Source of the DNA: Planoprotostelium fungivorum | Taxonomy: Eukaryota > Evosea > Variosea > Cavosteliida > Cavosteliaceae | DNA length: 64,000 nucleotides | Assembly (NCBI GenBank): GCA_003024175.1 | Contig: MDYQ01000029.1 | Span: forward strand, 119,699 to 183,698 | Direction of reading: 5' to 3' | Shown here: in pieces, positions 1 through 33,700 of the stretch | Numbering within the stretch: the first letter of the stretch is position 1 | Layout: each line of letters begins with the position of its first letter | Position numbers and translations under genes: made by a program | The notes under the pieces: model-generated | The model's input: only the letters and a program-made list of their open reading frames with translations | What the model was told of the DNA's origin: nothing | Databases searched by the model: none

Positions 1-2794
1 CATATTTTTGTTGTTAGAAAACGAAAAAGATGAAAATTTTCTTCTTCTCACCTCCACTGATCACTGACAAAAGATTCCCTCTTTGATTTCATCGTTCCCG
101 CCAAAAGATCCAATCGGAGCTGCTCTACAACGAGGCTCGCAGAAGTCTTCTTCTCTCGCAGTTTCAAGAAACCCGCTGGGATCGTTGTAGATAGACCTCC
201 TCCAGCAGAAGAAGCGATGGCGTCGACCAACAGCGTCACCACCTCAGGCACGTACCTCTTCGTCTCTCTTATCACCTACCACCGTCAGATCTTCCCAAAA
301 ATTTTCCAGATTTTTCCGGGAATTTTCAATCTACAACGAACCTGCAGCACGAGGTTGCAAGTGAAGAGTGCCAAAGTGAAGTCTTTCGGTGTTCTGATGG
401 GACATCTAGAGATGTATTCGTTGATTAAGAGGATGGATGGTGTTGAGATGGGGTGCTCAAAGTCAGTGCTAGGATAGATGGAAAAGACCAACTTGACGAA
501 CAAGAGGTGCCCGAAAGAAGGCCAGCAGCTGCCCACGGCGCGGGATTCTGTCGCAGATTTGAGAATTCCGCGACGGGGTGGGTGTTCACCTCCGGATAAT
601 TTCTCGGATAAACTCTCGTGGAAGGCTACGATGCGTTCACGGCACAGCTTGTAGAGGCTGTCGGGTGAAATGTCTCGCATGTCTGTGATGTGTTTGGTGA
701 GTAGGTCCAGTAGGGTCAGAGGAAGAGTGTCTGACTCGTGCAGCGTCGACACCGTGACGATGTAATGCTCCACGAGGATGTGCAAGAAATTCTGGTGAAA
801 TGTGAGGATGGCTGGTTGTAGAACGATGGGTCACCTGCATCTTCTCCTTGTTACCCTCCTTCAGCGAAGGATGATTGCAAGATCGGATTCGTTGAATGAT
901 CGTAGAAATCTCAGTGACATTTCGGCCCTCGGTCCATGCTTGCAGCTCCTCTTGGTCTTGTGGTACGTCCAAAGTGAAGGGAATCTCACCACCTTTCGTC
1001 ATTTGTATCATCTTCTTCTCTCCCTTCTCTTCTTCCCTATCATCTTCGTCTGCTTCTTCTACCTGGTGGATTTCTTCGTCAGCGCTGATGACCGTCTACA
1101 ACGAGCCAGATGAGAATTTCACCTCTTCTTCGTCGACCATGTCATCTTCATCATCATCGGCACCCTCTTCCTCTTCTTCCTCCTCTTCTTTCTCTTCTTC
1201 TTCCTCCTCTTGTTTTTCTCCCTCTTCTTCCTTCTCTTCATCCTCTACTCTCCGTCAATCTTTAAAAAGATTTAAATGTTGCGTCTACAACTCACCAGGG
1301 TCCGATTCCAAACTGTATCTCAGAGGCTCTTCATACACCGGCACGTTCCAGTCATCGTCTAGAGCGTCACCACTCATGTGTCTCTCTCGATCAATCTTCG
1401 GCTTCAACTTCTTCACGGACTCCAACTCTTCATCATCAGGTCTCATCCTCTTTAACCTCTCCTCCTACGAAAAAATTGAATGAAAATTTAAAATGGTAAG
1501 CCTTCGAAATGAATACAATGATGGGCCACCTCGAGCTTTTCTAATTTCTCTCGCTCTTCTGCTGCGGCTTCTTCTGCTGTTTTCGTTCTCTCTGAAGGTG
1601 TAGCTCTTACGTCGAACGCCATCTCACGTACTGCCTTATCGTAATCGTCCGGACCCAAGCCTGGAATATCGCGTCAACTTTCATTCTACAACGAGCCACG
1701 TGGCGATGAAATCTCGTGGACATTTCGTGTGCGAGGAGCATTTGAAGTGACTTTTTTGTGGGAGCATTCGAACTAAATCACCTCTCTCCTTCTTCTCTTC
1801 TGTGGACAACTTTTGTCTCTTCAAACCGATCAAGTCTTGCTGCAGCTCTCCGTAGTCGCGGTCCAATTTGTCTGTCAGGTCCTCCATCTCATTGTGGAGC
1901 TTCTGTTTTTCTCTCCTGGCCAGTTTGCTCTTGGCGATGATCTCGGAGTAGATCTCTTCTCTCGTCTTCTTCCTTCCGTCTTCTCCTTCTTCTTGGTTGG
2001 CCTGGCGTGGAGTTGACATCACGATGCATCATGTTGGAATGTATATGATGATGAAGTGACGATGTCTCTTCTCACCCTCTGCAAACCACCAAAGTGAAGT
2101 TTATCTACAATCTCGGCGTCCAGAGCGTCTTCGCCATCGTCATCGGACACCACGTAATCATCAAACTTTTGCATCTCTCCGATGCTCGTTCCCAAATGGG
2201 TCAACTCTTCTTCTTCATCGTTCAGATTGTACTTTTCGTAACGTTTCTGTCGACATTGTCAACGAACACGAATCATTAGACTGGAAGACGATCTTTCGTC
2301 TGAGGAAGAAGATCACTCACTCGGGTCTCTTTCTGATAACGGATGAGATCCTTCTCATCTTGTGTCAATGTAGAGTTGTTCTCTCCAATACGATTGTCTT
2401 CAAAGACGCTAGCTTTGTCTTTCTGATTGTACTCTACGAGAAGGGTTCGATTTCTCTATTTCATAGTCAGACGCCTCGTTGACATCAAATTTTGGAATCA
2501 TTCTGATTATCATGATGATACCAGCCACAGTCACTGACAAGGCGATTGATCAATAAGTTTCTCGTCACTCACGTTCTCGATGGCTTTCGTTCTCGATTGA
2601 CCCAGATTCGATCGGATACCTTTGATCTTCTGACCATCGACCACCATCTTTGGTTTGTTGAATCTCATGTTGAACGGGTTGGTCGCGGGTGCCTTCTCTT
2701 TCTTTCCCTTCTGGATGCCACCCGATGTCCTCTTCTGTCCGAAGCCGGGCTTACTGGACCCCTTAGAGCCAGTGCTCTTGCCACCGTGTGCCAT
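1..2794 (-). CDS. NOP14: Nop14, nucleolar 40S-assembly factor (3' end outside window)
   Basis: Nop14 is a nucleolar component of the small-subunit processome needed for 18S rRNA maturation and 40S assembly. The start ATG is at 2794 (protein begins MAHGGKSTG) and is followed by the basic NPFN motif typical of the family. Reading leftward the exons give KDKASVFEDNRIGE (about 2.4 kb), KTREEIYSEIIAKSKL (about 1.95 kb), DYDKAVREMAFDVRA (about 1.65 kb), an acidic Glu-rich stretch (1.14-1.25 kb), IPFTLDVPQDQEEL and CNHPSLKEGNK (0.85-1.0 kb), LVFSIYPSTDFEHPI (about 0.45 kb) and KRYVPEVVTLLVDA (about 0.25 kb). All are conserved Nop14 blocks in the right order. The C-terminal part lies beyond base 1. 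Short introns separate the blocks; one reads gtgacc...caccag near 790-832. Several introns carry the TCTACAAC motif described elsewhere. The upstream gene starts 148 bp away on the other strand, so the promoter is shared or back to back. Confidence 0.93.
1095..1107. repeat. Intronic motif TCTACAACGAGCC (Nop14)
   Basis: One copy of a 13-14 base word that recurs in introns of several genes. Read in the sense of this minus-strand gene it is GGCTCGTTGTAGA. A second identical 13-mer lies at 1685-1697, and shorter forms at about 329-342 and 1284-1292. Confidence 0.7.
1685..1697. repeat. Intronic motif TCTACAACGAGCC (Nop14), second copy
   Basis: Identical to the 13-mer at 1095-1107, again in non-coding sequence between Nop14 exon blocks. 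Confidence 0.7.
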
Positions 2795-2941
2795 GTTGTA
2801 TGGTGGATTATCAATGTGATGTGAGAAGGAAAGGAGGAAGAAAGCGGAAAATGTGAACCGGCTCGTTGTTTGTTGGTACACAAATAATTTACCGAATTTC
2901 GTTTCGTGGTGAGAATCGAAAGCGCCAGCCGATCGCACAGC

Positions 2942-5900
2942 ATGATCTTTCGGACACTTCACATCTGCTTGCTTGTCTGTGTCGTCACCTCGTGTGACGT
3001 CTATGTAGATGGTAAGATGGGCAATGATACCTCCACCTGTGGCACGAAGGATAACCCCTGCGAGACTATAGCCGGAGCCAAAGTCATAAAAAATCAGAAG
3101 GAAGTGTGCTTGAAGTCAGGTATATACGAGAACAGCACAATCCCCCACCGCATGCGATGGTGGAAGACGGAGGAAGAAGAGGGAGAAGTGAGCTTGATGA
3201 ATTGGACGAAGAGCTGACTTCGAATAGCGTCCCACGCTCAAGTGTCTGAATTCCGTTTCTGTAACGTCTGCTGGTGATCTGATGTGGAGCGGCATTCACA
3301 TCCAAAACTGTTCTGGATCTATTTCGACCGTCAACATTCAAATCGATTCAGTTCTGGTGGATGAAGGGGAATTGAGTGTGGGCCATACCATGCTGAATCA
3401 CTTTACCTATGCACGCAGATATCCTCTTCCATCCTTCGATCCTCGAGGATCTTCAACACGAGCATCACAAATAGCACTTTTCTTTCCTCCTTCTCTCTCT
3501 CTGTACAATTTGGCGAGCATGACCAAGGGCAACATCTCTTCACACTGGATAACAATCGATTTCTCTCTGCCACATACGATTTCATGGCTATCTCACCCTC
3601 TTCTACAAAGAGTCAAGTCCAGATCTCTCACAATTTTTTGGGCCCCAACACCAAAATGACTACCAGTCTGAGGAGTTGGACCGAACTCAACATCATCAAC
3701 AACACGTGCGGAGGCATCTCATCCCGATCATCATTGTGGATCGACACCATTCAATCGGATGACTCGCGGTTCAACGTCTTACACAACCGACTCGGTTATT
3801 TATCTCTAGCAATCAAGCTGATCGTGATGCCCAATCTCATCTTTGAAGAAAATTTTATCTCGCGGGCGGTCGTCACCATACAAACAACGGGGGATTCCTT
3901 GTATACATCACGGCCAAAATCACAATTGAACATCATTCGCAATCGAATCGGCAGTGCACAGTGGCTGTTGCAGGAGGAACACACGGATGCATCGAACTCG
4001 GAAGTGATGGAGATGATGGATAATGAGATGGGTGATGTCGAGGTGATCATGAAGAATATGGGGTTTCGAATCAGTGGGAACGTCATGAAGAAGCTCGTAT
4101 TCTCAAAGGTGATATTTTACGTCCGATTTTCGATGGTCATCTACCTTGATCGTCATCCATCTTGACATCCATCTTGATCATCATCCATCTTGATCATCAT
4201 CTATCATCATCTATCACCTTCAATCATCTTCAATCATCTATCAGCATCATCATTGCATCACCTCACGTCCATCTTTCATCTCACTTCATCCCATCAACAC
4301 AAACCGCACGACACAAACGATCACAGGAAATAGGGGTGAATGAAGAAGCTCTCTCTCACAACATTCTAAATAACAACACGATCGATTCGCTCGAATACTC
4401 GATTCAAAAAACAGTCATCGGTCTCATCACGCACTACGACATACGAGGAAATCGATTCGAACAAGTCACACTGTTGGCCGCGTCTCTCAACTCTGATGTC
4501 CTCAATCTGACGGAGAACACATTCACACGCACCAACGAGACGTTCGATGCTTTGTCGATATCGCAGATACAAGGGTTCACCATCGCGGTGGCAGATTCAA
4601 ATTTCGAAAATTACGACGGGGCGGGAATCGCATTCAGAGATGTCATTCATTCGGCCATCTATGTAGATCGCGTCAAGTGAGTGAAAAGGATGAATCTAGG
4701 ATCACATATAAGAACAAGAACCGTGATGCTGATCTACAACGATGTAGTGTCTCAAACTGTCGCAACGGAGGGATCCGTATGAACTTGTACAACAGCAGGG
4801 CTCAAATCACGAGCTGTACAGTCCACAACAACACGAGCCCCAGCGACGGCGGTGGCATCGCTCTCTTTGGTGACAACGCAGCAGTGGACATCAGTCAGAG
4901 CAACTTGACGCAAAACTTTGCGTCTCACGCGTCGTGTCTGATGGGATCACTGGGTAGAGACAGCTCTGTGCAGGTAAACAACTTTGTCAGAGATGGAAAG
5001 ATGATGACACAGACAGCTGAGAGATGTGTACATGACTGTGGCAGACAACGTGACGACGACAACAGATCACAGCGTTGTAGTGTTGACGTCAAAGTACAAC
5101 ACGAGTCAGGTCAACTTGCAATGTACAGATGGCAGCTTCTTAGATGCGAGAGAGCAAGAGAAGCATCTGCTATGGAGCTGCAGCTTGTGCGAGAGTGGAA
5201 GCTACACGCTGGGTGAGAGGAGAGAAGAGAGAAGGGAGAATGACGAGAGACAGGGAGAGGCATGATTGTGGCAGACAACAAGACAGGGACGCAGTGCAAC
5301 AAGTGTCCGCAGGGAGCGATCTGTGAAGTAGGCAAGCCCGTCTCGGTGAGTCAGTCATCGAGGATATAAACGATGTCATGGTGGACTGTACTGACCGTAT
5401 GGCAGAGCAGAGGAGACTTTTGGTGCGGCGCCACAGACGGAGAGTTAAGATGTCATCCGTGTCCGAACGGCTACTGCAGACGTGACGATCACCCGTGGCA
5501 GCAGCCCTGTGTGGGTGATCGCGACGGTATTTTGTGCGGTGGCTGCAAAGATGAAACGACACTGGGATTTCTCACGTCGTTTTGCCTGCCGACGCACAAG
5601 TGTAAGCCGCAGCTGCTGGCTGTGGCGAGTCTCATGCCCTTCCTGTACTCTGCAGTGTTGATGGCTCTGCCGATAGGAGATGGATCGATATGGAAGTCGA
5701 CATCGTACTTCATACAGACCGTTCCCCTCTTGGGTGAGTCAGCATCCATAATCATCATCTCATCATCTCATCATCTCATCATCATCTCATCATCATCTCA
5801 TCATCATATCATCATCTCATCATCATCTCATCATCGATTTTTTCATCCTGCAGTCTTCTTCCTGATGTCAAGTATCACACGTTGATTCGATGCAGTGCCG

Positions 5901-7124
5901 GAGACACAGAAGAACGAGATCATCAGCCTCTTCTCTTCTTCTCTCTCCCTCGAATCATCAAGGAAGATCTTTCCTCGGTTTCTGTCTGGGCACATTCAAT
6001 TACGTGCAGAAAGAGGCATTCTCGCTCTATCTCCCATTCGGTACCGTTCTCATCTTATGCCTCGTCTCTCTCGGCTTGTGTGTCATCGATGCAATCGTGA
6101 AGAGAAGAAAGGGAGATGCGAGAGTCATGCACATCGAATGGAAGAAGAGGAGCGTCATCAGCCGATCGACTGCGGCGTCAGTGGGAGCTCTGCTGCTCGT
6201 CTACAGTGGTGTCGTGTCTTCTTGCTTGAAGTTGTTATTCTGCGTGCAGGTGAGAGATAAAACGAAGTCCATAAAGAGAAGCTGAGATTGAACGAGATCG
6301 AGCCCGGAGTGTGGGTCATGTACAACGATGGAACAGAGAGATGCAATCAAACATGGAGGACTGTTCTCATTGCCATCAGCTCAGTCACACTCATCTTAGC
6401 ACCCATTCTCATCCTCTTGTTACGGTGACCTTTTCATCCGTTGTTTCATCTCTACTGTGACTGACGTGAAGACAGACGAAGACTGAAGCGATCAGAAGAG
6501 ACAGTGCATCGTGACGTGTTGATCGTGCTAGAAGGCTGCTATCGTCCGGGCCGCAAGTGAGTGCAAAGTGATGAAAGCGACGCAAGAGACGTGACAGACG
6601 AGAAGGTACTGGGAGTCGATTTACATGGGCAGGCGACTGATGATCGCCGTGGCTTACGTGTTCATCACGAACGAAGCATGGTGACTCATCTCACAGTCTA
6701 CAACGTCTTTCTCTGACGTCACTGCAGGACTCAGCCGGTGATGCATCTGCTGATGATCACGTCGCTGATCGCACATCTCTACCTCAAGCCTTTTGTGACG
6801 AAGGTTGGACAGAACCTCGAAACCATCTGCCTCATCTCACTGACTGTCATCACACTGCCCATCAGCCACGGTGGTCTCTTCATAGACGTCGTCATTCAGG
6901 TGAAGTCTTGTGAGAGAGGGAGCTCACGTATGCAGATATTGATCGCTTTTCCTCTGATCGTCAGCGGTAGCCTGATGGGGAAGAAGTTGTTTGTGAAGCT
7001 GAGAGGGAAATGGAGGAAACGATGTAGAAAGAATGAACTGGGTGAGTCATCGCCATGTGATGTCGGACGATGCTGATGATAAGCGGAGGAATCGGAAGCA
7101 CTCTTGATCAATATCAGCTTGTAG
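2942..7124 (+). CDS. Secreted beta-helix, Cys-rich, multi-TM surface protein
   Basis: The start ATG at 2942 opens a clear signal peptide (MIFRTLHICLLVCVV) followed by DVYVDGKMGNDTSTCGT, the usual entry into a right-handed parallel beta-helix (pectin-lyase-like). Repeated N-rich rungs such as NIINNTCGGISSRS and GGGIALFGDNAAVDISQSN run to about 4.95 kb. A Cys-rich segment follows (CSLCESGSYT, CNKCPQGAIC, CHPCPNGYC, CGGCKDETTLGF; about 5.1-5.6 kb). At least six hydrophobic segments follow to about 7.0 kb, and the protein ends basic (KLRGKWRKRCRKNEL) with stop at 7122-7124. This layout suggests a plasma-membrane protein with an extracellular beta-helix and a polytopic tail. Many protists have such proteins and the ligand is unknown. 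More than ten short introns interrupt it, several made of ATC/TCATC runs. Exon joins between 3.1 and 5.4 kb are approximate. Confidence 0.75.
4131..4260 (+). repeat. Degenerate CATC/TTGATCATC repeats in an intron
   Basis: This stretch of the surface-protein gene is built of repeats of catccatcttga and atcatc. It is low-complexity and non-coding, within an unusually long intron for this locus. It is not a CRISPR or transposon repeat. Confidence 0.6.
5744..5845 (+). repeat. (TCATCATC)n microsatellite in an intron
   Basis: About 100 bases of nearly pure catcatctcatc units lie in an intron just after the exon ending QTVPLL. ATC-rich tracts are the common intron filler on the sense strand of many genes here. 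Confidence 0.7.
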
Positions 7125-7324: not shown

Positions 7325-10300
7325 CTAAAAGCTTCCCTTCGTCTGTATGTCCTCTGCTCCCTCTCCAACCGCCATCCTGCTCAGATCATCCACGCAGGCC
7401 ATCCTGATCCTCTCCGAAGTCAGAGGACTGTTCAACTGGAAGTATTCTTCTTGTCCTTCTTCCCTTCTGGCCGCCTTGACGGCTTCCTTGATGGCAAAGT
7501 AGACGGACATGCCCAGTAGAAGGGGAGGCTCGCCGACGGCTTTAGACGATTGCACGGCGACCGTCTCTAATTTGGGATCGGTCGTGTCCGGCATGAGAGA
7601 GATGTTCCATTCGGTGGGGATGTCATCTGCGGAGGCTGGTGGGGTCAAGGAAAATTACGAGAAAATATCGAGAAGATTCTGAGAAAAATCTGAAGGATAC
7701 GGATCTTGTAGGTACCCGGGCCTGCCGTTTGCAGTTTCCCGCCCTGTTTGATCCAAGGGTGTTGATTGTCACCCCAAGCTAACTCTTCGATGGAGACGAG
7801 GCCGGCACCCTGCATGAAGGCTCCTTCCACCTGGAGGGGTGAGATTTTTTGGCGGGAACGGCCTCACCTGGCCTATGTCGATGGTGGGGTTGATCGGATC
7901 TCCGACGTCCAAGACGAGATCTACCCTTCTCACTTTGTGATCACCGGTGAGGGTATCGATCTGATTTTTCTCAGAAATTTCCGATACATTTCCCGGAATC
8001 TTCACCTCGACCTCCGTACAAGCCGTACCTAAAGTAAAGTACCTCCACACCTTACCCTTGTTCGTCATGATATCATACCCCTCGTGCTCAGACTACCCAA
8101 AGACGTCATCCCACTCTACGCATCGAAATTTCATTCGAATTTCCTCACCTTGAAGAATCCCTGGGCCGACAGGGACACCCTGTCAAAGTACGCTTTCACG
8201 GCCAATTGTCCCAGAGTGGCTCCACTGTCCTTCTCTCTGTACGGCCTCAGCCTCTCGGCCAGCTGCCGGGCGGCATCGAGAGCGGCACCTCCATAGATGT
8301 CTGTTGACATCGAGGCAGCTGAAGGTGAAGCGTTGGGAATCTTATCTGTAGCCATCTCTTTGATTCGAACGTGACTGATGTGGACTCCTAATTCGTTGGC
8401 GACCACTTGTGCCACCTATCATCGATTTAGACGTCTTACACGTGGGAGGAGGGGATGAGAGAGAGCGGAAAGATCCGCAGGGAGAGACATTCACCTTCGT
8501 GTTCAGACCCTGACCCATTTCGATGCCACCGTGTGTGACTAAGATTGTACCGTCCAAATAGATGTGTATCATGGCTGAGCCTTGATTCAAAAACATTGCG
8601 TTGAAAGCTACGCCGTATTTAGAAGGGATGAGGGTGATGCCCCTCTTTCGGTGACGATTTTGTGAGTTGTAGATCTCGATTTCCTGGAAAAGTCAGGGGT
8701 ACGTACGGTACGTCGGGTACCTGGAGACGGTCTTGAAATTTCGAGGAGATCTTGCATTCGTCCCAGGAGCGGCGTACGCTCTTTGTGACGGGGAAGTTGT
8801 AGTACGTAAGATCTCCTTCGTTGTACAGATTCCTCTCGCGTACCTACACCGAGTCTCAAAATTTTGAGACCTATTTTTGGCGGGAAATTCGAGGTGAGGA
8901 GGGACGAGAGAGATTTGAATTTTCTTCGAATTTTCTCACCACTTCAGGTCTTAATTTCAAGAAGGAAGCGACGTGTTCTACGTACGCCTCTGCCGTAAGA
9001 TAACCCTGCGGACCTCCGAACCCTTACCTCTATCAGAAATTTCATAGATATTTCCCTTAATATTCTCAGAATATTCTCACCTCGGAAGGCAGTGTGGGAG
9101 GGTATGTTTGTCCTGGCCACTCTTCCCTTGTTCCTGAGGGCGGGAACGTTGTAGCTAGAATCACAGAAGAGGAGGGCTCTGTCTAAGACGGCAACGGAGA
9201 GGTCGTGTGACATTCCACCGTTGGCGTACAGTTGTAGATCGGCGGCGAGAAGTTTCCCGGAAGAGTCGAAGCCGATCTTGTATGATGATTTGAAGGGGTG
9301 ACGACCACTGTGGGTGTCAATCTACAACGGTGTAGAGCGATTGGCTTCTTCATGAAGGAACGGAATATTGAATCATTTTGAGAGGGAATTATATGATGAT
9401 ATAATATTATCTATAATCCTCGAAATCATTCGTGATAGTACGTGTGTCCATCTACAACGAGCATCGACACCACGCATGAAAAGGAGGGATAAAGAATGTC
9501 GACAGTGACTTACCCCGTGATCTGCATGTCGACATTTCTCTCCAGGCGAACTCTGACGGGTCTACGCGTGTAGTAGGCAGCGAGGGCCGCCGCCGCGGAG
9601 AAATTAATGTTCCTCGTTTCTTTCCCGCCAAAACCACCACCTACTCTTCCCACACGGGTGACAACTTGATTGATGGGGATGCCCAACGTAGATGCCTGTC
9701 CCAATTTCAATTCCGTTTCGATCGATTGGGACTCTCATCGATCGACGAGAGATGTTTCAGATGATTTAGAATCATATAAAATAATCTAAAGTGATTTACA
9801 ATAGATGAAAACGTACCACGAATTTTTGTGTCTTGTGTGCATTCTGTGTGGAGGTGTAGACGTACATGTCTTCCTCGTCTGGCACTACCAGAGAAGTCTG
9901 CGTCTCGAAATAGAACTGTTCCTGCCCTCCCATGTAGATCTATCCTCGATTCATCTCTCTACAACTCTCAAGAAGCCGTTCGGTACGTCGGAGTACGTAT
10001 CGGCTCGTTGTAGATGGATCGATATCTCACTTGTCCTTCGAGGGTGAGAGGTGCCTTGGACATCTCTTCGTCTACGTTCTTCTGCGTAACACCGTGTGTC
10101 ACGGGGAAGAAAGAGTCCGCCTGTACGCTTCGTTACGTACGTACCGTACGTATCTCACCTGTATGGCGTCGTCGATGGTGTAGATACCAGGTAAATCTTC
10201 GTACTCGATCTTGATCAATTTTGCTGCCTCTTTCGCGGCGATCTCGTGCTCTGCCACGACAATTCCCAGCATCTGCCCGTAATGGAGGACCTTTTCTTGT

Positions 10301-13300
10301 CAATCTACAACGTTGTAGATCGACGATCATCACCTCCTTCGACGCGAATAATTCTTCGTCGCTGATGACGTCACCCCACAGGTTACTCCCCGGTACGTCT
10401 CGGTACGTATAGATTCCCACCACCCCCGGTACCTTCCCACGGTCACCTATGACATCTCAACGACATGTCTCACCTTCATGGCGGCCTCCTTATCGAGACT
10501 CAAGATCTTGGCGTGACCTCGATCGGCCAAAATGAGTGCAGATTGCAGCTCTCGATGTTGGTGTGGCATGTCGTCCACGTATCGAGCCTCACCCGTCGTA
10601 TGTTTTTTTGCAGATAAATGGGGCTCGGATTGTCCGACGGAAGTTCCGCGCTTGTTGAGGCGGTACCTATCTACAATGAGCCAAGGGGGAGGTCACAAGA
10701 CTCACTCTTGGGTGGCGCGGGTGGTTTCCGCGGGGAAGGCCTTTTCCGTGGAACGGCCGAGTTTCTCGGGAACGGGAAGGGAGTGGTGGTGAAGTAAGGA
10801 CAAGAAGAATTTGTAGAAGAAACTGAGAGCGAGGGTAGTGCGGTAACCCGCTTGGCCTCCGGGTACGTTCTCCCCCCTGAGGCCGACCTGGATGACGTCA
10901 TCGGGGGGTACGTACGGTACGTAGGATACGTAATGTACGTGTGTCGTGGTGTGAGATGTCGATGAAAATTCACCTCGCGGTTGAGGACTGCGGCGGCTTC
11001 GTTGAAGGTTTGTAGGTCGAGTTTCTTACCGATTAAGAATGCTTCAGTTTTAGGTGATAGAATGGAGGTAGGTGCGAGACCTCCGAATCCCAATTTAGCC
11101 TTGACAATCTTTTCATCTGTGACTTGTTCAGCTCAAGTTTCAAATAAAATTCTTCTATTCTTTTCTAAATGATTCTCTTCTTTCTATTCTTTTTTCTTCT
11201 CGAAATAAAGTGTACGGATGAAAATTCAATTTCGGATGTAAAGTTGATTTCACCTTGAACCTTCGCTAGCATGGCAGATGTAACGATGGCAATGTCATCT
11301 TCTCTCCTTCTACCCTGCTTGTAAGCCTCCACAAACTCATCCTCCTCGTTCCACGGAATCGCTGTCTTCGTCAGAAATCCGGATGAAATTTCGAGTTACG
11401 TACTGACGTGTGATAGAATCTCTTGGTCTTCCATTTTGACTTTCTTGTACCCCGTAAAATATTCAGAGGCAGCAACTGGCTTGGCTTTCTCTCCCGCCTT
11501 CTGCGTATAGAACGTCGCACCCTGTCGATGACGTCATCACACGTCATCACAAGTCTCGTTGTAGACGGACGGATCGACTCACCAGAGCCAACAGAACGGG
11601 ATTCAGATCCGAGATGGGTGAAGCGTTCACGATGTTGCCTCCAATGGTGGCAACGTTTCTGATCTGTGTTCCGGCGAAATAATGAAGCTGGTCTAACACA
11701 CTCTGAATGGCTCTCTCTCTGTGTCTCTACACCGTCATCAGCCGAGACGTCACGTGACTCTACAACTCTCCACCTGAGAGGGAGACAGGCTCGCAGCACA
11801 TTCTTCCAAATAACGACCGATGTTGTCTAATGTTACGGCAGATCCGATGTGGAGGCCGTTGTCGTCGTGGTGGATCTGAATGGGTCAAAAAAAACGGAGG
11901 GAGAGGGATTCGAACTCGCGTACATCCGTCAGCTCGGGCACGTTGACCGGTGAGATCAAGACGGGGAAGGTTGTTCCTTTGAATCGGAAATCAATTCCCA
12001 ATTCCGTGCTGCCAGAGATGATCTTTGCCTGGGGATATTCCATCTACAACGCGTTAATTTGTGAGATTTCTGCGAGATTTCTCACCTTGATGTCGAGTAG
12101 GTCCTTCAGAGAGGTGGGGGCGTACCAGCTGGCGGACTCGTTGGTGAGTTGTAGAGGGACGATTTTCTTCTGTTTTAATTCTTCGGGGAAGGGTTTCTCC
12201 TTCGCCGCATCGTAAGGCTTGAAGGCCTGCAATAAAATTCAGTCGCGGCTCGTTGTAGATGGATGATTTACCCGATCTTCCGGTGGCTTCACTGTGTCTT
12301 TCGTGTCGTGACAGAACTGGGAGAGTCAGCAAGACAATTTGAAATCCAAACGTACTGATTTGGCGGCATCGACGATGGGACGGTAACCAGTGCAGCGACA
12401 CAGATTTCCGTCCATACACTTTTGAAATGATTTAGAATCGGGCTCTGGATTGTTTCTCAAGCCGGTATACATAGACATGATGAAGCCTGATGGATCATCA
12501 GTCGCACGACTTTCAGAGAGAATACAGATGATGGAAAGGAGATCGAGAAGTGAAGTTCGTTCGGGTGGTAATCATCGAGAGATTCATGTGATGTCGATCC
12601 ATGATATGCAGGATGAACATCTGATGATGAGAAGAGGGGATAAGTAGAACAATGAAGAGAAGCCAACCTGGCGTGCAGAAACCACACTGAGAACCTCCCC
12701 AGATCGCCATCCTCTCCTGCACGGGATGCAGCTCGTCGAACACACTGCCGATACCTTCGACAGTTGTGACGTCCATACCTTCCACGTAACACAGAGGGAC
12801 GAGACATGAATTGACGGCTCGATGTCTGTGTGATAATCAATCGTGATACAATTACATCATCGTCCATTTGGAAGGGAAGGAAGAGAAATGAATGCCTCAC
12901 GTGACGGCTTGCTTCTCATGGTCGTAATGGGATATGGTGACGGTGCATGCACCACAACCACCTTCACCGCAGGCCAATTTTGTCCCCTTCAAATTAGCAT
13001 TATCTATCGACAGTTATTTCGGTTTGTCTGTCAATTATGTGGATAGCTCACTTCGAATATAATCGATGAGTGGCTCAGCGGGGTTTATATTTCTACTGTC
13101 GACTTGAACAGGCTTTCCGTTTAGATAAAAATTGAGAGTCTTCTTGTATGTCTCCTGCGATATGTCACCCGATGTTGATATCCATCCAGACCCACTGTCT
13201 GAAGAGAACGGAATGGAAGAGTAGACCTTCCAGAATTGCGAGAGAGCCCCTGTTTAGACACGTGAGACACGTGAGCTCCCAACCGCAGCATGGTGATAAT

Positions 13301-13555: not shown

Positions 13556-13839
13556 TCTTCAAAGGTAGGTGAGCTGTTCCTAGTCTAAGTCGATGGAAGC
13601 CAAATACGGTAGACTTAAGACGAACCTGATATTTCACGCAGTATTCAGTAGTCACTTCGAATCGGTTGTGACGGCATTAAGGGCGAAGAATGAGTAAGGC
13701 GCACAAGAGAAACTTCTTTGTCGGTGTGACCTCACACGTGAACTACCGTGATGCAGCTCGATATCATACAAAGAAAGATCAGAGGTGAAGGGAACGACTT
13801 ATACCGCGAGGCTTCTGTCAGAATTACACAAGAGACGCC

Positions 13840-15988
13840 ATGATAGCATCACCTTCATCCTCGAGTGGTTCTTTCAAGATCAAGCGATCCGTGTCCTCTT
13901 CTTCGTCACATGATGAGCTCGAGAAACAGATCCAGGTGGATGATCGACTTTGATAATCGGAAGTGATCCAGATCTCACCGCATGTAGTCCATCTTGCAGA
14001 ATGACTTCACCGCTCTACCGCACATCTTATCCATCATCCCCAAAGATGATTGGAATGTCTTCGCGGATCACCTCTTCGCGTACCACCTAGAGGAAGATGC
14101 TTGGCCGCTCAACCTATGGGCCCTCACACAGAGGCCATCGGAGGATCTATCACTGAATGAGGAACAGTTTCACGATATGATCGTCAAACGGAATGTCTTC
14201 TCCGACATGACTGTGAAATGGAACCGAAGCCTCATAGAAGGATTTTACAAGAAGGCCAAGCTCATCTATAACGACTTCGATGTGCGGATGATACAGAGAA
14301 GAAATACTGATGGAATTCACAGGACTTCGAGACGGAAGAGGAGAAGAAGAAGATGTGCGAGTTGTTGTCCATCTTCATGAAAGCCTACGCAGAGTCTACC
14401 CCGGAAGATATTCCCCTGTAAGATTTATTTCATTTTATTTCATCTACACAAATATTTGGGTGAGACTCACTTTCAAACAGACTGGCTCTCAAATCGGCCA
14501 CCCTCTTTAATGACATCGTCGGATACGGTGACGATCTGTTGAGCAACACCCACAACTTCTTCCTGGAAAAATCGCTCATCCCTCTCATCTCGAACCCAAC
14601 TTTGGTCAACTTGGACGATCTCAACTGTGAGTTTCGTTATATCAAAATTCAAACGGTGTGATTGACGCGATCGATAGATGTCCGCCCACAGAAGCTCCAG
14701 AGATTATTAGACGAATGCGTCAGGTGCTCATCATCACATGAATCTCGAAGAATGATTTCCACACAGACTTCTCCATCTGTACGGTAGAGTGAAGAGAGAG
14801 CCCACGATCGAGCCGTATCAATCTCTCATGGTACACTGGGCCACCATCACATCATCGAGATCAGACGTGCACTTCAGCTGGAAGACAGTCGAGATGGTGG
14901 AGAAGATCTACAAGGCTCAGGTGAAAAGACGTAATGAATGGAAGACTGACGCGTTGCAGCACATGCCGAACGTAAAGAAGATGAGACGATTGGAGGGGAT
15001 GATGAGAGATCTCATCAACGATCACTCTGATGATGGCATATCTGAGTCGGGTTCAGTCTTCAGTCAGGTATCCGTCACTGTTTCCAACACAAGCATCATC
15101 ATCATCTGATCACTCGCACATCGTCATGATACATCTTCTCCCCGTCCAATTTATTTCTTCACCCGATTTAATCTATTTTAAAGATCGGTTTGGGACAATT
15201 ATCCGAGAAATTATCCGACGAAAGGTGGAAGCCTGCCAAGTCGAAGAATGGCGTCATCGCATCCTCTTGGTCAGAAGGAGGTGTCGCGGCACGAGTGGAA
15301 GTAGAGATAAAGGGAGACGTCAATCAGACGAGAAAGATGGTCGACAAGATCGTTCAAGATATCTTTCAGAATGTCAAGCTCTTCTCGGTGATCATCATCA
15401 TGATCATGATCGAGATCGTCATCTGATGCGTCACGTCTTGTGATGATATTGATGAATGATAGAAACAAGAGATCGAGACAGTCGACAGAGACACCAGCAT
15501 GATGCAGTTCAGAGTCCACACTCCCTTTCCTTTCTCACCCAGATACATCAGCGCTGACATCCACTATCACACGACAAACGATGATGATAGCACAGCTGTT
15601 ATCTATCAGTCAGACAGACACAAGACGCCGTCAGGTCATCAGAGAGCAAAGATGCTGCGTGAGTCACCTCATCATCACTTCACTTCATCACATCATCACT
15701 TGTGTGGCATGATATACATGTGTATGTGTATGTGTGAGAGAGAAGAGATAGAGTGACAGAGAGACAGTGTCAGGCATACAAGTGACAGCAAAGGGCAGAG
15801 ACAGAGTGAGAGTGACAGTGATGTTGCATATGGACATGTGTTCGAGCATACCCAACTGGGTGAGCGATCACACCAACATCAAATCACAATCATCTAACAC
15901 AAATTAGGCAGCGTCAGGTCAGAGCTCAGCCATGAAGAAGGATCTGTGCAAGATCTTGGGCAGCTCTCGACAGACATTGCAGGTCTAA
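13840..15988 (+). CDS. START-domain protein, tandem copy 1
   Basis: The ATG at 13840 gives a Ser-rich leader (MIASPSSSSGSFK), then a conserved helical region (NDFTALPHILSIIPKDDW, EEQFHDMIVKRNVF) and a middle part (NPTLVNLDDL, EPYQSLMVHWATI). The C-terminal region has RYISADIHYHT, TPSGHQRAKML and GIQVTAKGRDRVRVTVMLHM...SSIPNW. This last block matches the end of START lipid-binding domains, where a hydrophobic strand, an acidic residue and IPxW close the pocket. The N-terminal half weakly recalls a RasGAP fold (FRxNSL-like IKRNLFSDLM in sister copies), but I cannot confirm that. The last exon follows GT-AG after PNW and ends QTLQV with stop TAA at 15986-15988, which overlaps an AATAAA signal. 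It is the first of three head-to-tail copies. The ligand is unknown. Confidence 0.75.
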
Positions 15989-16484: not shown

Positions 16485-18494
16485 ATGAGAGAAGACTCCG
16501 TTTCTTCTCACGACAAGCTGGAGCGACACATCAAGGTGAAAGGAATACATCCATCGAATCTTTGCCATTCTCAACCGTCCCAGTCCATCTTATCCAACGA
16601 TCTCTCCTCTCTGCCGGAGATCTTATCCGTCATCCCTAGAGATGATTGGGGTGTCTTTGCGGACCATCTCTATGCCTACCATCTGGAGCAAGACGCGTGG
16701 CCGATCATGCTTTGGGCCATCACACAGAGAACGTCCGATGATCTGACGCTGAACGAAGAACAGTTTCATGATATGATCATCAAGCGGAATCTCTTCTCTG
16801 ATTTGATGGTGCGATGGACTCGAAGTCTCATCAAAGACTTCTATGAGAAGGCCAAACTCATATACACCGAATTTGATGTGAGAATGATGTTTGACTCGGA
16901 CGATTGAATGATGCGTAGGATTTCGACACAGCGGAAGAGAAGGAGAAGATTTGCGAGCTGCTGTCCATCTTCATGAGAATCTTCGCCGAGTTGAACCCCG
17001 AAGACATCCCCTTGTGAGATCCATCTTCGTCTTATCCCTCACATCGTTCAGATTGGGCCTCAAGCCCGGCACCTTCTTCCACAATTTAGTGGGACACGGT
17101 GATGACATCCTCTCCAACGCCCATTTCTTCCTCATTTCTAAATCATTCCTTCCTCTCATCTCGAATCCGACTCTGGTCAATTTGGACGATCTCGGCTGTG
17201 AGTCTCCCACACACGGAAGAGGACTTCAACAGTAACGTACGACAGATGTGCGGCCACAGAAGCTCCAGAATCTGTTGAACGAATGCGTCAGGTGAACTCC
17301 TGTGAAGGAATCACCAGAATGATCCAAATATAGACTTCTCCATCTGTACGGTAGAGTGAAGAGAGAGCCCACGATCGAGCCGTATCAATCTCTCATGGTA
17401 CACTGGGCCACCATCACAGCGGCTCGGACTAATATATACTACAACTGGAAGACAGTTGAGATGATGGAGAAGATATGGAAGGCTCAGGTGAGTCAACAAG
17501 TTGTACAGTCCGATGACATGCGATAGAACGTACCGAACGTGAAGAAGATGAAGCGATTGGAAGAGATGATGAGAGAGCTGATCACCGATCACTCCGATGA
17601 TGCAGCGTCAGACTCTGGTTCCATCATCAGTCAGGTGAGACGCGATGTCACGAATGATCGAACGTGTATGATATCACACTTACAATCTCTCTCTCGTCCC
17701 TGCGATTCATTTCATTCAGATTGGTGTGGGACAATTATCAGAGAGATTAAGCGACGAACGATGGAAGGCCGTGAAGTCAAAGGAAGGCGTCACTGAATAC
17801 TCTTGGTCTGCCGGAGGTGTCGCGGCACGAGTGGAAGCAGAGATGAAGGGAGAAGCCGGTCAGACGCGAAGGATCGTCGAGAAGATGGTGGAAGAAGTCC
17901 TACGTAACGTCAAGCTCTTCACGGTGAGCGTCATCACATGATCGTGTTCGCGATGCCGTCGTCGGTCGTCAGCACCATCTTCATCTTCGTCACTGACTCG
18001 CAATAGAAGCAAGAGATCGAGTGTGTCGACAAGGACATCAGTGCAGTTCAGTTCAGGGTCAGTGCTCCCTTTCCCTTCTCGCCCAGATACATCAGCGCTG
18101 ACATCCACTATCACACGACAAGCAATGGCGACAGCTCAGCCATCATGTATCAGTCAGACAGACACAAGACGCCGTCAGGTCACCAGAGAGCAAAGATGCT
18201 GTGTGAGTCACTTCTTCAATCACTTCTTCACGCTATCACACGATATAAATGTGTATGTGAGAGAAGAGAGAGTGACAGAGAGACAGTGTCAGGCATACAA
18301 GTGACAGCAAAGGGCAGAGACAGAGTGAGAGTGACAGTGATGTTGCATATGGACATGTGCTCGAGCATACCCAACTGGGTGAGCGATCACATACCGTCTA
18401 GGTCTCGTACGGCTCTGATGTGGAGCAGGCAGCGTCAGGTCAGAGCTCAGCGATGAGGAAGAATATCGGCAAGATATTGAGAGGTCATAAATAG
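16485..18494 (+). CDS. START-domain protein, tandem copy 2
   Basis: The ATG at 16485 starts MREDSVSSHDKLERHIK, and a GT-AG intron joins it to SILSNDLSSLPEILSVIP. The conserved blocks follow in family order: EEQFHDMIIKRNLFSDLM, NPTLVNLDDL, EPYQSLMVHWATI, NVKKMKRLEEMMREL, GQLSERLSDERWK, WSAGGVAARVEAEM, then the START part RYISADIHYHT and SSIPNW. The last exon ends KILRGHK with stop TAG at 18492-18494. Intron positions match copies 1 and 3. The C-terminal exons are nearly identical in DNA to the other copies, while the N-terminal exon is more diverged. The family probably binds a lipid or other hydrophobic ligand at membranes or in the cytosol; no signal peptide or membrane segment is visible. 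Confidence 0.75.
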
Positions 18495-18768: not shown

Positions 18769-20817
18769 ATGTCGTTGAGTGATTTCCCCCGTAAGACGAG
18801 TCGAGGCTCTTTCCCTCCCTCCGATAAGCTCGAGCGACACTTCAAGGTACGATGTCATTTTGAAAAGATGTTTAATGGCCAATGCTCACAGGCCATCTTA
18901 TCCAATGACTTCACCTCTCTGCCGGATGTCTTAGCTATCATCCCTAGAGATGATTGGAATGTCTTCGCGGATCACCTATACGCTTATCATCTGGAAGAAG
19001 ATGCTTGGCCTCTCACTCTTTGGGCTCTGTCACAGAGACCATCAGAGGATCTGACGCTAAATGAAGAACAGTTTCACGACATGATTATCAAGCGTAACCT
19101 CTTCTCCGATCTGATGGTAAGATGCAATCGGGGTATCATAGAAGGCCTCTACAGGAAGGCAAAATCCACCTATACCGAGTTTGAGGTCAGGATGTGACAA
19201 GAGACGTTATGACTGATTGATGTTTAGAACTTCGACACGGAAGAGGAGAAGCAGAAGATCTGCGAGATGCTGTCTATCTTCATGAAGACTTTTGCCGAAT
19301 TGAATCCGGAAGATATTCCCCTGTGATGATCCATCTTCAATTCATCTCGTCAATTTATTCTGATTTTATTCAGACTCGGTCTCAAACCTGGCACCTTCTT
19401 CCATTATCTCGTGGGTCACGGAGACGATTACTTGTGCAACAGCCACTTCTTTCTCATCGAGAAGTCTCTCGCAACCATCGTCTCGAACCCAACCCTGGTC
19501 AACTTGGACGATCTCAACTGTGGGTCCTCCATCTCATCGTGCGATCATGACTGCCTTTAGATGTGCGTCCACAGAAATTGCAGAATTTATTGGATGAATG
19601 TGCCAGGTCAGACAGTTGTGTCGATTAAAATCATAGACTGATGTAAGAACAGGCTGTTGCGGCTGTACGGTAAAGTGAAGAGAGAGCCCACGATCGAGCC
19701 GTATCAATCTCTCATGGTACATTGGGCCACCATCACGGCGGCTCGAACCGAGACACACTACAACTGGACGACGGTGGAGATGATGGAGAAGATATGGAAG
19801 GCTCAGGTGAGTTGATACGTCGTACAGTCCAATGACACGTGAAAGAACGTACCGAACGTGAAGAAGATGAAGCGATTGGAAGAGATGATGAGAGAGCTGA
19901 TCTCCGATCACTCTGATGATGCAGCTTCGGACTCTGGTTCCATCATCAGTCAGGTGAGATATCCGACTTGAATGTGATCGAATCGCTCGACGATACGTAA
20001 TTCGTCTGCGTGGATGGCTAATCTCGATTTCGAATTGACATCTCGCAAAGGGTCTGGGTCAACTATCAGAGAGATTAAGCGACGAACGATGGAAGCCTAC
20101 CAAGACGAAGAGAGGTATCACTGAATACTCTTGGTCTGCCGGAGGTGTCGCGGCACGAGTGGAAGCAGAGATGGAGGGAGACGTCAGCCAGACGCGAAAG
20201 ATCGTCGAGAAGATGGTGGAAGAGGTCGTCCGCTCCACGAAGCTCTTCTCGGTGATGATTCACGTCTTCGTCTCTCGACTGAGATCGATCAGAAACAAGA
20301 GATCGAGTGTGTCGACAAGGACATCAGTGCAGTTCAGTTCAGGGTCAGTGCTCCCTTTCCCTTCTCGCCCAGATACATCAGCGCTGACATCCACTATCAC
20401 ACGACAAGCAATGGCGACAGCTCAGCTGTTATCTATCAGTCAGACAGACACAAGACGCCGTCAGGTCATCAGAGAGCAAAGATGCTGCGTGAGTCACCTC
20501 ATCATCACTTCACTTCATCACCTCATCACTTGTGGCGTGATGTACATGTGTATGTGTATGTGTGAGAGACAAGAGAGAGTGACAGAGAGACAGTGTCAGG
20601 CATACAAGTGACAGCAAAGGGCAGAGACAGAGTGAGAGTGACAGTGATGGTGCATATGGACATGTGCTCGAGCATACCCAACTGGGTGAGCAATCATACA
20701 TACACTCTAGATTTCTGGTGTTGGTCGCTCTCTGATTCTCAGCAGGCGGCCTCAGGGCAAAGCTCAGCAATTAAGAAGGATCTGAGCAGGATCTTGAGAG
20801 ATCATCAGACCATCTGA
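18769..20817 (+). CDS. START-domain protein, tandem copy 3
   Basis: The chosen ATG at 18769 (MSLSDFPRKTSRGSF) matches the leader length of the sisters; an in-frame ATG at 18715 is possible. The first intron lies after KLERHFK, as in copy 2. Blocks: NDFTSLPDVLAIIPRDDW, EEQFHDMIIKRNLFSDLM, EEEKQKICEMLSIFMKTF, NPTLVNLDDL, ARLLRLYGKVKREP, WSAGGVAARVEAEMEG, and the START-like end GIQVTAKGRDRVRV...SSIPNW. Stop TGA is at 20815-20817. The 3' third, introns included, is almost the same as in copy 1, which points to recent duplication or gene conversion. AATAAA follows about 14 bases after the stop. Confidence 0.75.
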
Positions 20818-27100: not shown

Positions 27101-27161
27101 TTCATAGTTGTAGATGACCGTACTTTTTTACGTCAATATGACGCACCATCTGAGGACTAGG

Positions 27162-28159: not shown

Positions 28160-28287
28160 ACATCAGACGATGATGGAAAAAGTGATCGAGTTGAATGATG
28201 GAACGGGCACACATTATGAACCGTATGATAAAGAAGAGGGATAAAAAAGAGATGTAAAAATCGGATTTATATACATTGCATCTCTCA

Positions 28288-29243: not shown

Positions 29244-29459
29244 GATGATTCTGTTCCTCCCAAGCCAAAAAACGAATAAAATACGATTTTACAAGCCCTC
29301 ACCGACACAGTCCCAAACTCAACAGAACGAGACGTAATGAACAACAGTAACTCTCTACATCGAAGACATCAAGATATCAACCATCTCTCACCGAGGACGT
29401 TCACTTTACTGATCACGATCATGTAACAGAGCCCATCGACATGATGACTCTTCAAAATT

Positions 29460-30744: not shown

Positions 30745-33700
30745 ATGACCGGATCCTCCATCGTGGCCGGCGGCATGCCGAACGATCAGAACATCACCAT
30801 CTTTCTCATCCAATTGGTCATCGTAGTGGCCCTCTCCAGGACATTAGCTTGGCTATTCGGTTTCCTTAAGCGTGAGAGAGAAGGATGGTATTTGAAGGTG
30901 AATGACTTTACGTGCAGAGCCGTCAGTCATCGCGGAGGTAGTCGCTGGTATCTTGTTGGGACCGTCTGCCTTCGGTGAATCCTCTATGTCTAAGAGAAGT
31001 CTGACGATAGAAGGTCGAATCGATGGTTACGTTACAAATATCTTCCCCCCGACCAAGTCGAACTCATCCGTCTGTGGCTACATTCCGCGTAACGGAAAGG
31101 TGATGGACGATGCGTCGTCCGTGAAACTCACACGACTGTGCAGAACATCTTGGCACCTTACGGACCCATCGATGTTCTCTCCGTCTTCGCCAACTTTGGA
31201 CTCATCTTGTTCATGTTTCTCATCGGACTCGAACTCGACACGTCAATCATGAAGAGAAATCTCAAACAAGGTCTATCTATCTCTCTGGCAGGTATCGCTC
31301 TACCTTTTGCCTTCGTGAGCTCTCCATCACATCTATTCATCATCTCATCCTCTATAGGGAGCCGCCATCGCTTATCCCATCTTCACCACCGTAGGAACCC
31401 CTCCAAATCCAAACGTTCAGTTCAGCACCTTCCTCGTCTTCGTCTGCGTTGCCATGTCCATCACTGCCGTGAGACATTCATGCACCATCGTCCGGTCGTT
31501 GACTCTCTCAGTTTCCCGTCTTGGCTCGTATCTTATCTGAAACCGGTTTGATGGAAACGAGAATCGGTAACTTGGCCCTCTCTGCCGCTGCCGTAGATGA
31601 TGTCATGTGATCGGATCGCGTCTCATTTTCATCGTTCTCATCAACTTCAGCGCTTGGATTTTATTGGCCGTCGTCGTCGGTATCGCGAACGCATCCACAC
31701 CCCTCGCTGCCCTCTATACCTTCCTCCTTCTCATCTCTTTCGTTGCTTTCATGATCCTCATCGTGAAGCCCGTCCTCGCCGCGTTAGCCAAATCACGCTA
31801 CCTCTTAACCGATTCGGGAGAGTTATCTCTCAATGTCTTGGCCATCTTCTTATTAGGTAACACTCTTCCATTCATTTTTTATTCCATCTACAACGCCGGC
31901 AGGCATCTTCATCTGCGCATGGTGGACGCAGGTCATCGGCGTGGACGTCATCTTTGGAGGCTTCGTCATGGGTATAGCTACTCCGAGGTCGAATCGCTTG
32001 CCCGAACGCTTCATGAAGTCTATCGAGGACGTCGTAGTCGTTCTCCTCTTACCTCTCTACTTTGCCAATTCGGGTCTAAAGTGACGACTGTTCCCAAATA
32101 TTTTCATCATCGAATCATTCACCATCGTCACATCGAGATCATCATTACATCATCACCCGATGTCTTTACGATGATGATGCTGACATCGAAACAGAACGAA
32201 CATAGGCTCTCTATCTCACGGAACCTCATGGGGTATTGTTGCGCTCGTCATCACTGCCGCCTGCTGTGGAAAGATCTGGGCCGCCGTTTTTACCGCCAAA
32301 TTAGTAGCCAAGACGACTTGGAAGGAATCCTGGACCATTGGATTCCTCATGAACACAAAGGGTGAATGATGTTCATCTACAAGACCGTTGTAGATGGAGA
32401 CGTTCATCTCGTTGAAACTTTGTTAGGCCTCGTCGAGCTGATCGTACTCAACGTGGGATTATCTTCCGGTATTTTGAACACTGAAGTGAGCGCGATCGAG
32501 ATCATCATTACGATCATCAAGACAAACATCATCACACGCTCGTCATTGTTCATCGCACTCATCAGACGTCAGACGTTCACCATCTTTGTTCTCATGGCAT
32601 TGATCACCACTTTCATCACGACACCGGTGGTACACTTTTTGTACTTGAGGGATAGGAAGAAGAAGAGGAGAAATCTCAACGAAAACTACATGACTTCCAT
32701 CGCCGTGAGAAACGTAAGTGTGGTCGCCTGGGCAACCGAAGTCCTGCCCAAAATTTTGGGCCGCGAGAAGATGACTATGAAGATTTTCGTTTTGAAGGTG
32801 GGAGTTTCAGATGATATCTTCTTTTATGCGAATGCGATATGCGATGCTGACTTGATGATGTCAGGAGATCAACGACAGACCTTCTACTTACATGTCGAAC
32901 GAGTTTGTAAACTTGCTGGAGAGCTTACGATTGAAGAAGAGAGACGAAAAGACAAATCTCATCACAAAGGTGCGTGCATTGTGATGAACATCGTCCGAAA
33001 AACTGAATCGAAAATAGGTGGCCGAGAAACACGAGATCAATGCCAAAATTTTGGCAACGGCTAGGATCAACGCTGACCTCACCGAGAAGTGGAAGCACAG
33101 GAACTACGACGTAGTTTTCACCGAAATCCACGTGAGTTTTCACTTCGACGATGACGTCACACTCACCTTGTTCAGATCGACACGAAATCTACGGACGAAT
33201 CGGACCTCCTCGTACAAGTGAGTCTTCACGTTTGAAGAGAGAGTGATCCTCTCAAAGTCATCATCCCTGGCCGATCACATGATCCATCATTACACGCGAC
33301 CTCTTGGCATCATCATCCACGGGTCTGACGTGAAGATACCCTGTCGCTCTATCCTCTTCCTCTACGAGGGTACACCCGCTGAGGAATTCGCCCTCGACTT
33401 CGTCAAGGTGGGATGGCGGGCGATTCAAATTTCAAACTGAAAATAGATGGCAGAATCTGGCGGGAAGTGGTAGCGACATCAGGTTGACTTGCATAGTTAA
33501 GACGGGAGTCGATTTTAAGTTGCCAGAGAGAGAAGGAGATGAGATCATCACCGTCGATCACCCATTCGGGAATCACGCGTCGAGAGAAGAGGACACCGAC
33601 CTCATCGTCTTTGGAGGCGACAGGTGAAGATCTTCCCTTCTTCGTCTCACCATGTGTTGCACGCTTGTCTCATTCTTTCAGGCAATCGAGCGGAAACTTC

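Follow-up and report, generated by a model that had tools for sequence, protein, structure and literature searches.

A CTACAAC-centred word of gene interiors in Planoprotostelium fungivorum and its possible role as a DNA-binding site

The last 64,000 nucleotides of a 183,698-base contig of Planoprotostelium fungivorum (assembly GCA_003024175.1, contig MDYQ01000029.1, positions 119,699 to 183,698; hereafter the window) contain many copies of a short motif, the 14-mer ATCTACAACGAGCC, which an earlier note had found in introns of unrelated genes in both orientations. This raises the question of whether these introns derive from a common inserted element, or whether the word is itself a signal, read either during splicing or by a DNA-binding factor. 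The earlier observation holds and exceeds its original statement. The word and a set of companions are, on balance, probably DNA-binding sites of gene interiors, most likely chromatin-organising ones, where both the factor and its function are what we infer from the arrangement of the sites.

The word and where it occurs

Across this one genome (36.86 Mb in 471 contigs), words were counted against a control, the reversed pattern. Exact copies of the 14-mer number 719 (371 on one strand, 348 on the other), while its reversed control has none, and the palindrome TCTACAACGTTGTAGA occurs 681 times against 0. Two other forms are more numerous, with 3462 copies of TCTACAACGAG against 53 and 14371 of CTACAACG against 2122. 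Within the window, 12 matches with at most two mismatches are found, compared with a mean of 0.49 and a maximum of 2 in 100 dinucleotide shuffles, so that both the repetition and the two orientations reported earlier are confirmed.

In a logo built from the 124 intronic copies whose flanks were long enough on either side, flank information extends from about 5 bases before the core CTACAAC to about 6 bases after it and then falls to background. The core octamer TCTACAAC has 286 strand-wise occurrences in 339 kb, of which 40 continue with GAGCC and 29 with GAG(A/T)C. A further 30 continue with GTTGTAG (15 palindromic sites, both strands counted), and 20 lie within two mismatches of the palindrome. 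Because of these continuations, the motif is best described as a half-site, CTACAAC, often followed by a different second half or by its own mirror. Tolerance of change is position-specific. The 27 one-base variants of TCTACAACG have a summed excess of about 27 against 115 perfect copies; this excess falls mainly on the first, seventh and last base and mainly on transversions, transitions sum to none, and there is no cloud of decayed copies. The result is limited to the TCTACAACG word, as TGACGTCA and GAAATTTC have some one-base variants in excess.

Several general causes of such words were considered. CpG methylation as the source of CG-centred words is unsupported for CTACAACG, whose variants ATCTACAATG and ATCTACAACA are seen twice each (against 0.8 and 0.9) beside 84 perfect copies. 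Both CpG variants of TGACGTCA are in excess (46 against 25.7 and 46 against 25.0), which a CATCATC-type background may also explain, and the observed/expected ratio of CpG in intron interiors is 1.04-1.31 by distance bin. A role in RNA hairpins, or as terminal inverted repeats of a short transposon, seems unlikely, as inverted pairs have no preferred spacing, the exact dimer excepted. A general excess of palindromes was rejected: in deep introns, 10-base palindromes are enriched when centred on CG (50 against 2.9 expected) or AT (30 against 4.5), with no excess of those centred on GC (2 against 2.3) or TA (5 against 4.2). Since only CG- and AT-centred palindromes exceed expectation, specific words are enriched, not palindromes as such.

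Gene models were predicted ab initio in 324 kb (339 kb in some analyses) of the 36.9 Mb with a simple gene finder that was self-trained on the sequence, handles GT-AG introns only, and had the motif made neutral against steering its calls. Twenty regions, 200 kb of this sample, were picked for holding the motif, which raises absolute densities and does not by itself raise contrasts between classes or positions; the unchosen set consists of the window and ten regions picked regardless of the motif. Genes truncated at the edge of a region were kept on condition that their start or stop had been predicted. Predicted introns are tiny (median 44 nt), with GTGAGT-like donors and YAG acceptors. An artefact of masking is rejected, as 1307 of 1315 introns are identical without the motif mask and 8 change.

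The comparison of introns with exons and intergenic DNA that the earlier note had proposed gives a clear enrichment. Introns (66.6 kb) contain 164 copies of CTACAACG, exons (212.3 kb) 68 and intergenic DNA (45.1 kb) 7, corresponding to 2.46, 0.32 and 0.16 per kb and an intron/intergenic ratio of 15 in both orientations. In the unchosen regions the copies number 38, 13 and 1, respectively. Intronic copies comprise 53 in sense orientation, 71 in antisense orientation, and 40 antisense copies that form the 3' splice site.

Exons also carry the word beyond expectation. Among 1200 8-mers seen at least 8 times in coding sequence (CDS) and ranked against synonymous-codon shuffles that preserve protein and codon usage, TCTACAAC (52 against 8.8) and CTACAACG (39 against 5.5) are first and second by z-score at 900 or more bases from the start. 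In the same ranking TTCCCGCC is third (16 against 1.5) and GAAATTTC eighth (16 against 2.0), and much of the rest is purine-rich simple sequence. These four words also exceed expectation within the first 600 CDS bases, without ranking at the top there. Exonic copies occur in all three frames, read as LQR, STT, YN, VV or CR, and several of those in the xanthine dehydrogenase (XDH) gene of the window are placed within exons by protein alignment. Missed introns were examined as their source by removing in-frame stretches that score as GT-AG introns (threshold at the 5th percentile of those called, which at its laxest takes in 23% of CDS; the control covers GT-AG introns alone). The excess of CTACAACG survives removal of all such stretches (50 against 9.2; 10 against 3.5 in unchosen and 40 against 5.7 in motif-chosen regions), and missed introns are rejected as the origin. 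Of 65 exonic copies, 15 lie inside possible-intron stretches, no more than the share of CDS that these stretches make up, although at least two, in L024 and L014, are by eye probably in missed introns. When exact 14-mers in the chosen regions are left out of the count, the exonic excess is 44 against 7.6. In L028, at 5242-5290, three motif copies lie 15 bases apart in a Ser/Thr/Pro-rich coding stretch.

In addition to the CTACAAC word, introns are enriched in TGACGTCA, GTCACGTGAC, TACGTA, GAAATTTC and TTCCCGCC. Genome-wide, GATGACGTCATC occurs 993 times against 4 for the reversed pattern, and TTTCCCGCCAA, which we take to be E2F-like, 880 times against 3. TGACGTCA, CACGTG and TTTCCCGCC presumably match classical factor sites, namely CRE, E-box and E2F-like sites. 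Genes rich in CTACAACG are also rich in the other words (Spearman rho 0.66 in 116 genes with at least 4 predicted introns). In the same genes, any-word counts are overdispersed (chi-square 329 against 115.5 ± 14.3 in 2000 permutations), and in 60 of these 116 no intron carries any of the words. The 18.8 kb of unchosen intergenic DNA hold one copy each of CTACAACG and TGACGTCA and none of TTCCCGCC. Several same-strand pairs of TTTCCCGCCAA lie 13-15 bases apart among the first 100 places listed (for example G000:C6:10547/10562, C12:159212/159226, C21:111691/111704).

Position along the gene

New here is that introns near the start codon are poor in the word and its companions, and that distance to both gene ends matters while gene length does not. 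Of the 563 introns within 750 bp of the ATG, 35 carry at least one of the words, compared with 211 of the 626 lying deeper; for the CTACAAC word the counts are 21 and 124, and GAAATTTC-type words appear in a single one of the 563 near-start introns. When words are permuted among the introns of the same gene, 33 near-start words are observed against 64.4 ± 4.9. In the unchosen regions, pooled words are found in 13 of 230 near-start and 57 of 232 deeper introns (Fisher 9e-9), and the within-gene test for all words gives P 0.013 at 750 bp and 0.0035 at 1000 bp. TGACGTCA, TACGTA and CACGTGAC are each commoner in deep introns (25 of 390 against 5 of 450 near the start; 16 against 3; 13 against 1).

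The rise of the CTACAAC word lies at about 875-1000 bp from the start. In a logistic model of 497 introns from 81 complete genes, the coefficient per kb is 2.2 from the start (bootstrap 1.5 to 3.4) and 1.2 from the stop (0.5 to 2.3), and gene length has no effect (log2 coefficient 0.02; -0.9 to 0.5). Restricting the comparison to complete genes of 2.5 kb or more (11 genes) leaves the 5' effect significant (2/36 against 48/146, P 0.0006). This gating of intronic copies indicates that the word is read, or tolerated, in gene interiors.

Other intron content also varies with distance. CATCATC/GATGATG-type content is present in 8% of introns less than 250 bp from the start codon; the share climbs to about 30% near 1 kb, beyond which it mostly declines, and for this reason introns seem to change their wording in layers along the gene. 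Near-start introns (<600 bp) have a word of their own, TGCATT/AATGCA, present in 29 of 450 compared with 2 of 390 deep introns.

Copies in the window

The six principal positions of the earlier note are correct to within 1 base, with exact 14-mers at 10002 and 12247 (both on the minus strand) and one-mismatch copies at 1094, 1684, 9450 and 10669. Its shorter forms lie 0-12 bases from where it had placed them (for example 4733 for 4731, 6697 for 6703 and 32387 for 32375). Additional core copies that it did not list include those at 124, 184, 815, 5073, 8666, 9147, 9231 and 9958, and the perfect palindrome at 10304-10319. Its placement of the copies in introns stands for many of them; those at 124, 184, 4733, 5073, 8666, 9147, 9231 and 12148, among others, are in predicted exons, and those at 27107, 34006, 36235 and 49899 lie outside predicted genes.

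A Nop14-like gene (48..2794, minus strand; gene model and Pfam) has core copies in introns 4, 7, 8, 9 and 11 and two in an exon. In this gene, copies with two mismatches to the 14-mer at 123..136 (plus) and one at 179..192 (minus) are in predicted exon sequence, and a one-mismatch copy at 329..342 (plus) is at the edge of intron 276-341. Intron 792-834 holds a two-mismatch copy at 810..823 (minus), introns 1063-1122 and 1661-1781 hold one-mismatch copies at 1094..1107 and 1684..1697 (both plus), and intron 1245-1295 holds the core TCTACAAC at 1284..1291 (plus). The core is also found at 4733..4740 (plus) in a predicted exon of the gene at 3584-7123, and at 6697..6704 (plus) in intron 6681-6727.

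The XDH gene (7325..13291, minus strand) has 29 predicted introns, and its name is upheld by an alignment of the predicted protein with solved xanthine oxidoreductases over nearly its full length. The same alignment reveals two small errors in the model, at the start of the intron at 12487 and in a false 22-base intron at 9006. The core at 9231..9238 (minus) is in a coding exon whose protein aligns with these enzymes, as are those at 8666-8673 and 9147-9154. Intron 9308-9513 contains the core at 9321..9328 (plus) in an imperfect palindrome, TCTACAACGGTGTAGA, and a one-mismatch copy at 9450..9463 (plus), while intron 9940-10030 contains the core at 9958..9965 (plus) and the exact 14-mer at 10002..10015 (minus). 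The perfect palindrome TCTACAACGTTGTAGA lies at 10304..10319 in intron 10291-10333. In intron 10667-10705, a one-mismatch copy at 10669..10682 (plus) ends a few bases before the predicted 3' end, and the second exact 14-mer, at 12247..12260 (minus), is in intron 12227-12271. None of the words is found in the first five introns after the start. A two-mismatch copy at 11553..11566 (minus) is in intron 11522-11582, which also holds GATGACGTCATC; this intron, L013 5673, and L022 422 and 758 are introns of different genes that share a longer string around GATGACGTGTGATGACGTCATC, extending beyond one word. Elsewhere, two introns of one gene (L023 4776 and 5969) are alike over most of their length, each with an imperfect CTACA..CGTTGTAG palindrome.

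The statement that some copies form the 3' end of introns is also correct, as 40 of the 1242 predicted introns have CGTTGTAG as their last bases. One of them is XDH intron 12044-12085, where the core at 12043..12050 (plus) reads CGTTGTAG on the gene strand and the boundary agrees with the protein alignment. At the far end of the window, a two-mismatch copy at 63549..63562 (minus) lies at the 3' end of intron 63520-63560.

The gene at 30745-33891, previously called CHX, resembles a Na/H exchanger, with a Pfam E-value of 9e-5 that is below the curated cut-off (100 residues searched). Its introns 31857-31902 and 32362-32426 carry the core at 31887..31894 (plus) and 32387..32394 (minus), and a further core at 34006..34013 (plus) is outside predicted genes. 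The gene previously called a surface protein had no Pfam match on the 100 residues searched. The window also contains a multi-copy gene family (13690-15987, 16485-18493, 18769-20773, 38143-40141 and 62915-64000) with no Pfam match on the 100 residues tried. Two neighbouring members have 83% protein identity and all nine of nine intron positions in common, and most of their intron sequences are seemingly unrelated.

What the words may be

The freedom of orientation, the position-specific tolerance and the presence in both coding and non-coding DNA fit a putative DNA-binding site. Together with the palindromic form, the sharp tolerance profile, the two orientations and the exonic copies indicate that DNA is read, not RNA, and a DNA-level site of gene interiors is accordingly a likely reading. 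Such a recognition site would span about 18 bp, with a core (T)CTACAAC(G), after which GAG(C/T/A)C or the core's own reverse complement often follows. A putative sequence-specific factor would read it on the double-stranded DNA of gene interiors, where the word would be one of a small intron-enriched vocabulary with TGACGTCA, GTCACGTGAC, GAAATTTC, TACGTA and TTCCCGCC. The job of these sites could be chromatin organisation inside long genes, for example as nucleosome barriers or as guards against internal initiation beyond the reach of promoter-set order, and sites from about 1 kb inward could renew nucleosome order. Arrays of regularly spaced nucleosomes are reported to keep cryptic transcription low in the bodies of yeast genes (PMC8636622). 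Taken by itself, the chromatin role is a tentative proposal that we would put at somewhat less than an even chance.

Descent of the motif introns from a common mobile element, with the word as its best-conserved part, would be in keeping with a word found in introns of unrelated genes in both orientations. In the introner survey of Gozashti et al. (2022; PMC9860276), introners are likewise repeats in introns of unrelated genes with both orientations allowed, but the survey requires similarity to set in close to the two splice boundaries and discards matches confined to the intron interior, whereas here an interior word of about 18 bp is shared and exons also carry it. Similarity ends about 5 bases to the left and 6 to the right of the core, inside ordinary introns of about 43 nt, and the best 40 of 25568 seeded pairs (1146 introns) include no group of at least four alike to both ends outside paralogues and CATCATC-type repeats, although three CRE-type introns belonging to different genes (L013 5399, L023 2413, L016 5064) are alike over most of their length. 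Along genes the density of introns stays level, between 5.4 and 6.5 per exonic kb across nine distance bins, while word frequency rises several-fold; motif introns are of usual length (median 43.5 against 44), and both the exonic excess and the scarcity of decayed copies also argue against an element. Of 12 comparisons between paralogues, L013/L018, at 37% identity, and part of L017/L020, whose partner is truncated, were set aside. For two motif introns, at L021 codon 303 and at L024 codon 33, the gene finder called no counterpart in the paralogue, but both are probably shared, as by eye the partners hold 51-base GT-AG and 39-base GC-AG stretches with the same word that were read as exon. Three shared positions, two of them in the L019 pair and one in 38143/62915, have the word in just one of the paralogues, and two others have it in both (L014/L021, L017/L020). 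The introner-like origin suggested earlier is thus largely refuted as the main explanation, and is very improbable.

The other suggestion made at that time, a splicing or DNA-binding signal, survives in its second half. An RNA splicing signal, in the form of an intronic enhancer or a composite of branch point and 3' splice site, would account for the concentration in introns, for the 40 introns whose 3' splice site is supplied by CGTTGTAG, and for the variant ...CTGACTCGTTGTAG, which joins a branch-point-like CTGAC to the splice site. It does not accord with copies in both orientations, with exonic copies in every frame and in excess, or with the scarcity of the word in near-start introns, whose need for splicing is equal, and we consider it improbable. 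Unlikely as well, though a little less so, is a code of self-identity or licensing, in which gene-interior words would mark host genes as self, as PATCs reportedly do in nematode germlines, or would spread by biased inheritance like bacterial uptake sequences. Such a code would involve short, orientation-free words, several together, over many genes including exons; the majority of intron-rich genes without any word, and gating by distance from the start, which is no obvious feature of such codes, speak against it. Ordinary transcription-factor sites that drive internal or antisense transcripts in long genes would suit the resemblance of TGACGTCA, CACGTG and TTTCCCGCC to classical factor sites and the abundance of the E2F-like TTTCCCGCCAA. 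Internal promoters or enhancers of this kind are doubtful, as CTACAACG, TGACGTCA and TTCCCGCC are scarce between genes and the words are scarce in near-start introns.

A number of observations weigh against the proposal that the words are DNA-binding sites of gene interiors. The word is scarce between genes, where sites of promoter-type factors would also be expected, and its intronic orientation is uneven, at 53 against 111 when splice-site copies are counted. A control word itself reaches 1.6-2.0 times the codon-shuffle expectation, and therefore part of the exonic excess is background. Gating by distance from the start is weak in exons, where CTACAACG has 11 copies against 3.2 in the first 600 CDS bases and 31 against 4.7 beyond 900, and the gating found for the words pooled may not extend to TTCCCGCC. 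In the unchosen regions, the within-gene start effect of the CTACAAC word is not significant (8 against 10.5 ± 2.3; P 0.19 at 750 bp and 0.07 at 1000 bp). In the wider sample, TGACGTCA, TACGTA and CACGTGAC taken singly have no significant start effect within genes (P 0.13, 0.16 and 0.20). Stop-side depletion does not reach significance when complete genes are limited to the 11 spanning 2.5 kb or more (2/16, P 0.15), and distances run from the predicted start codon, not from a mapped transcription start. The spacing of word pairs gives no more than a hint of a nucleosome-like period, the best being 160-165 bp with a z of 1.9 (563 pairs, 29 periods scanned). Additionally, about 25 bases around the word are common to some introns that belong to unrelated genes (L025 5495/L028 98; L014 2368/L028 3289), which hints at occasional copying, and word-rich genes are slightly denser in introns (median 6.7 against 5.7 per CDS kb, in 35 and 108 genes).

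Regulatory DNA words are expected at promoters and enhancers, and known general regulatory factor sites act at promoters. Periodic An/Tn clusters (PATCs) are found in introns. The exonic transcription-factor sites called "duons" resemble the present words in that coding DNA doubles as (here putative) binding sites, but the words are far denser in introns and are gated there by distance inside the gene. Intron-mediated enhancement signals are also intronic words that depend on distance from the start, but those act near the start, where the present words are scarce. The sites of yeast general regulatory factors that act as nucleosome barriers (PMC8163753; PMC8636622) are short DNA sites, as are the present words, which are proposed to order chromatin; they differ in that the words are scarce between genes and in near-start introns. 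PATCs of C. elegans (PMC7725773) are likewise non-coding DNA signals over many genes, but they are A/T-periodic by name, while the words are discrete, several of them CG-centred, and also exonic. The DNA uptake sequences of Neisseria and Pasteurellaceae (PMC2346458) share short length, hundreds to thousands of copies and a bias in intragenic distribution, but are bacterial, tied to competence for DNA uptake, and without introns. A search of the literature for such a gene-interior word pattern and for nucleosome barriers returned no title or abstract describing the pattern, which is no proof of absence.

In the fullest form of the proposal, which is possible and falls a little short of an even chance, this eukaryote furnishes its long genes internally with a DNA code of several short words, placed chiefly in tiny introns and, through codon choice, in exons as well; the code would rise at about 0.9-1 kb from the start codon, fall towards the stop, and organise chromatin or police transcription where promoter-set order fades. 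More generally, a word common to many introns need not imply a common intron ancestor. If the proposal is true, a vocabulary that is scarce between genes, occupies gene interiors, sits mainly in tiny introns and bends the codon choice of exons would be a sequence-encoded counterpart to the chromatin marks of gene bodies, and P. fungivorum would offer a clean system for testing whether intron sequence persists for DNA-level reasons.

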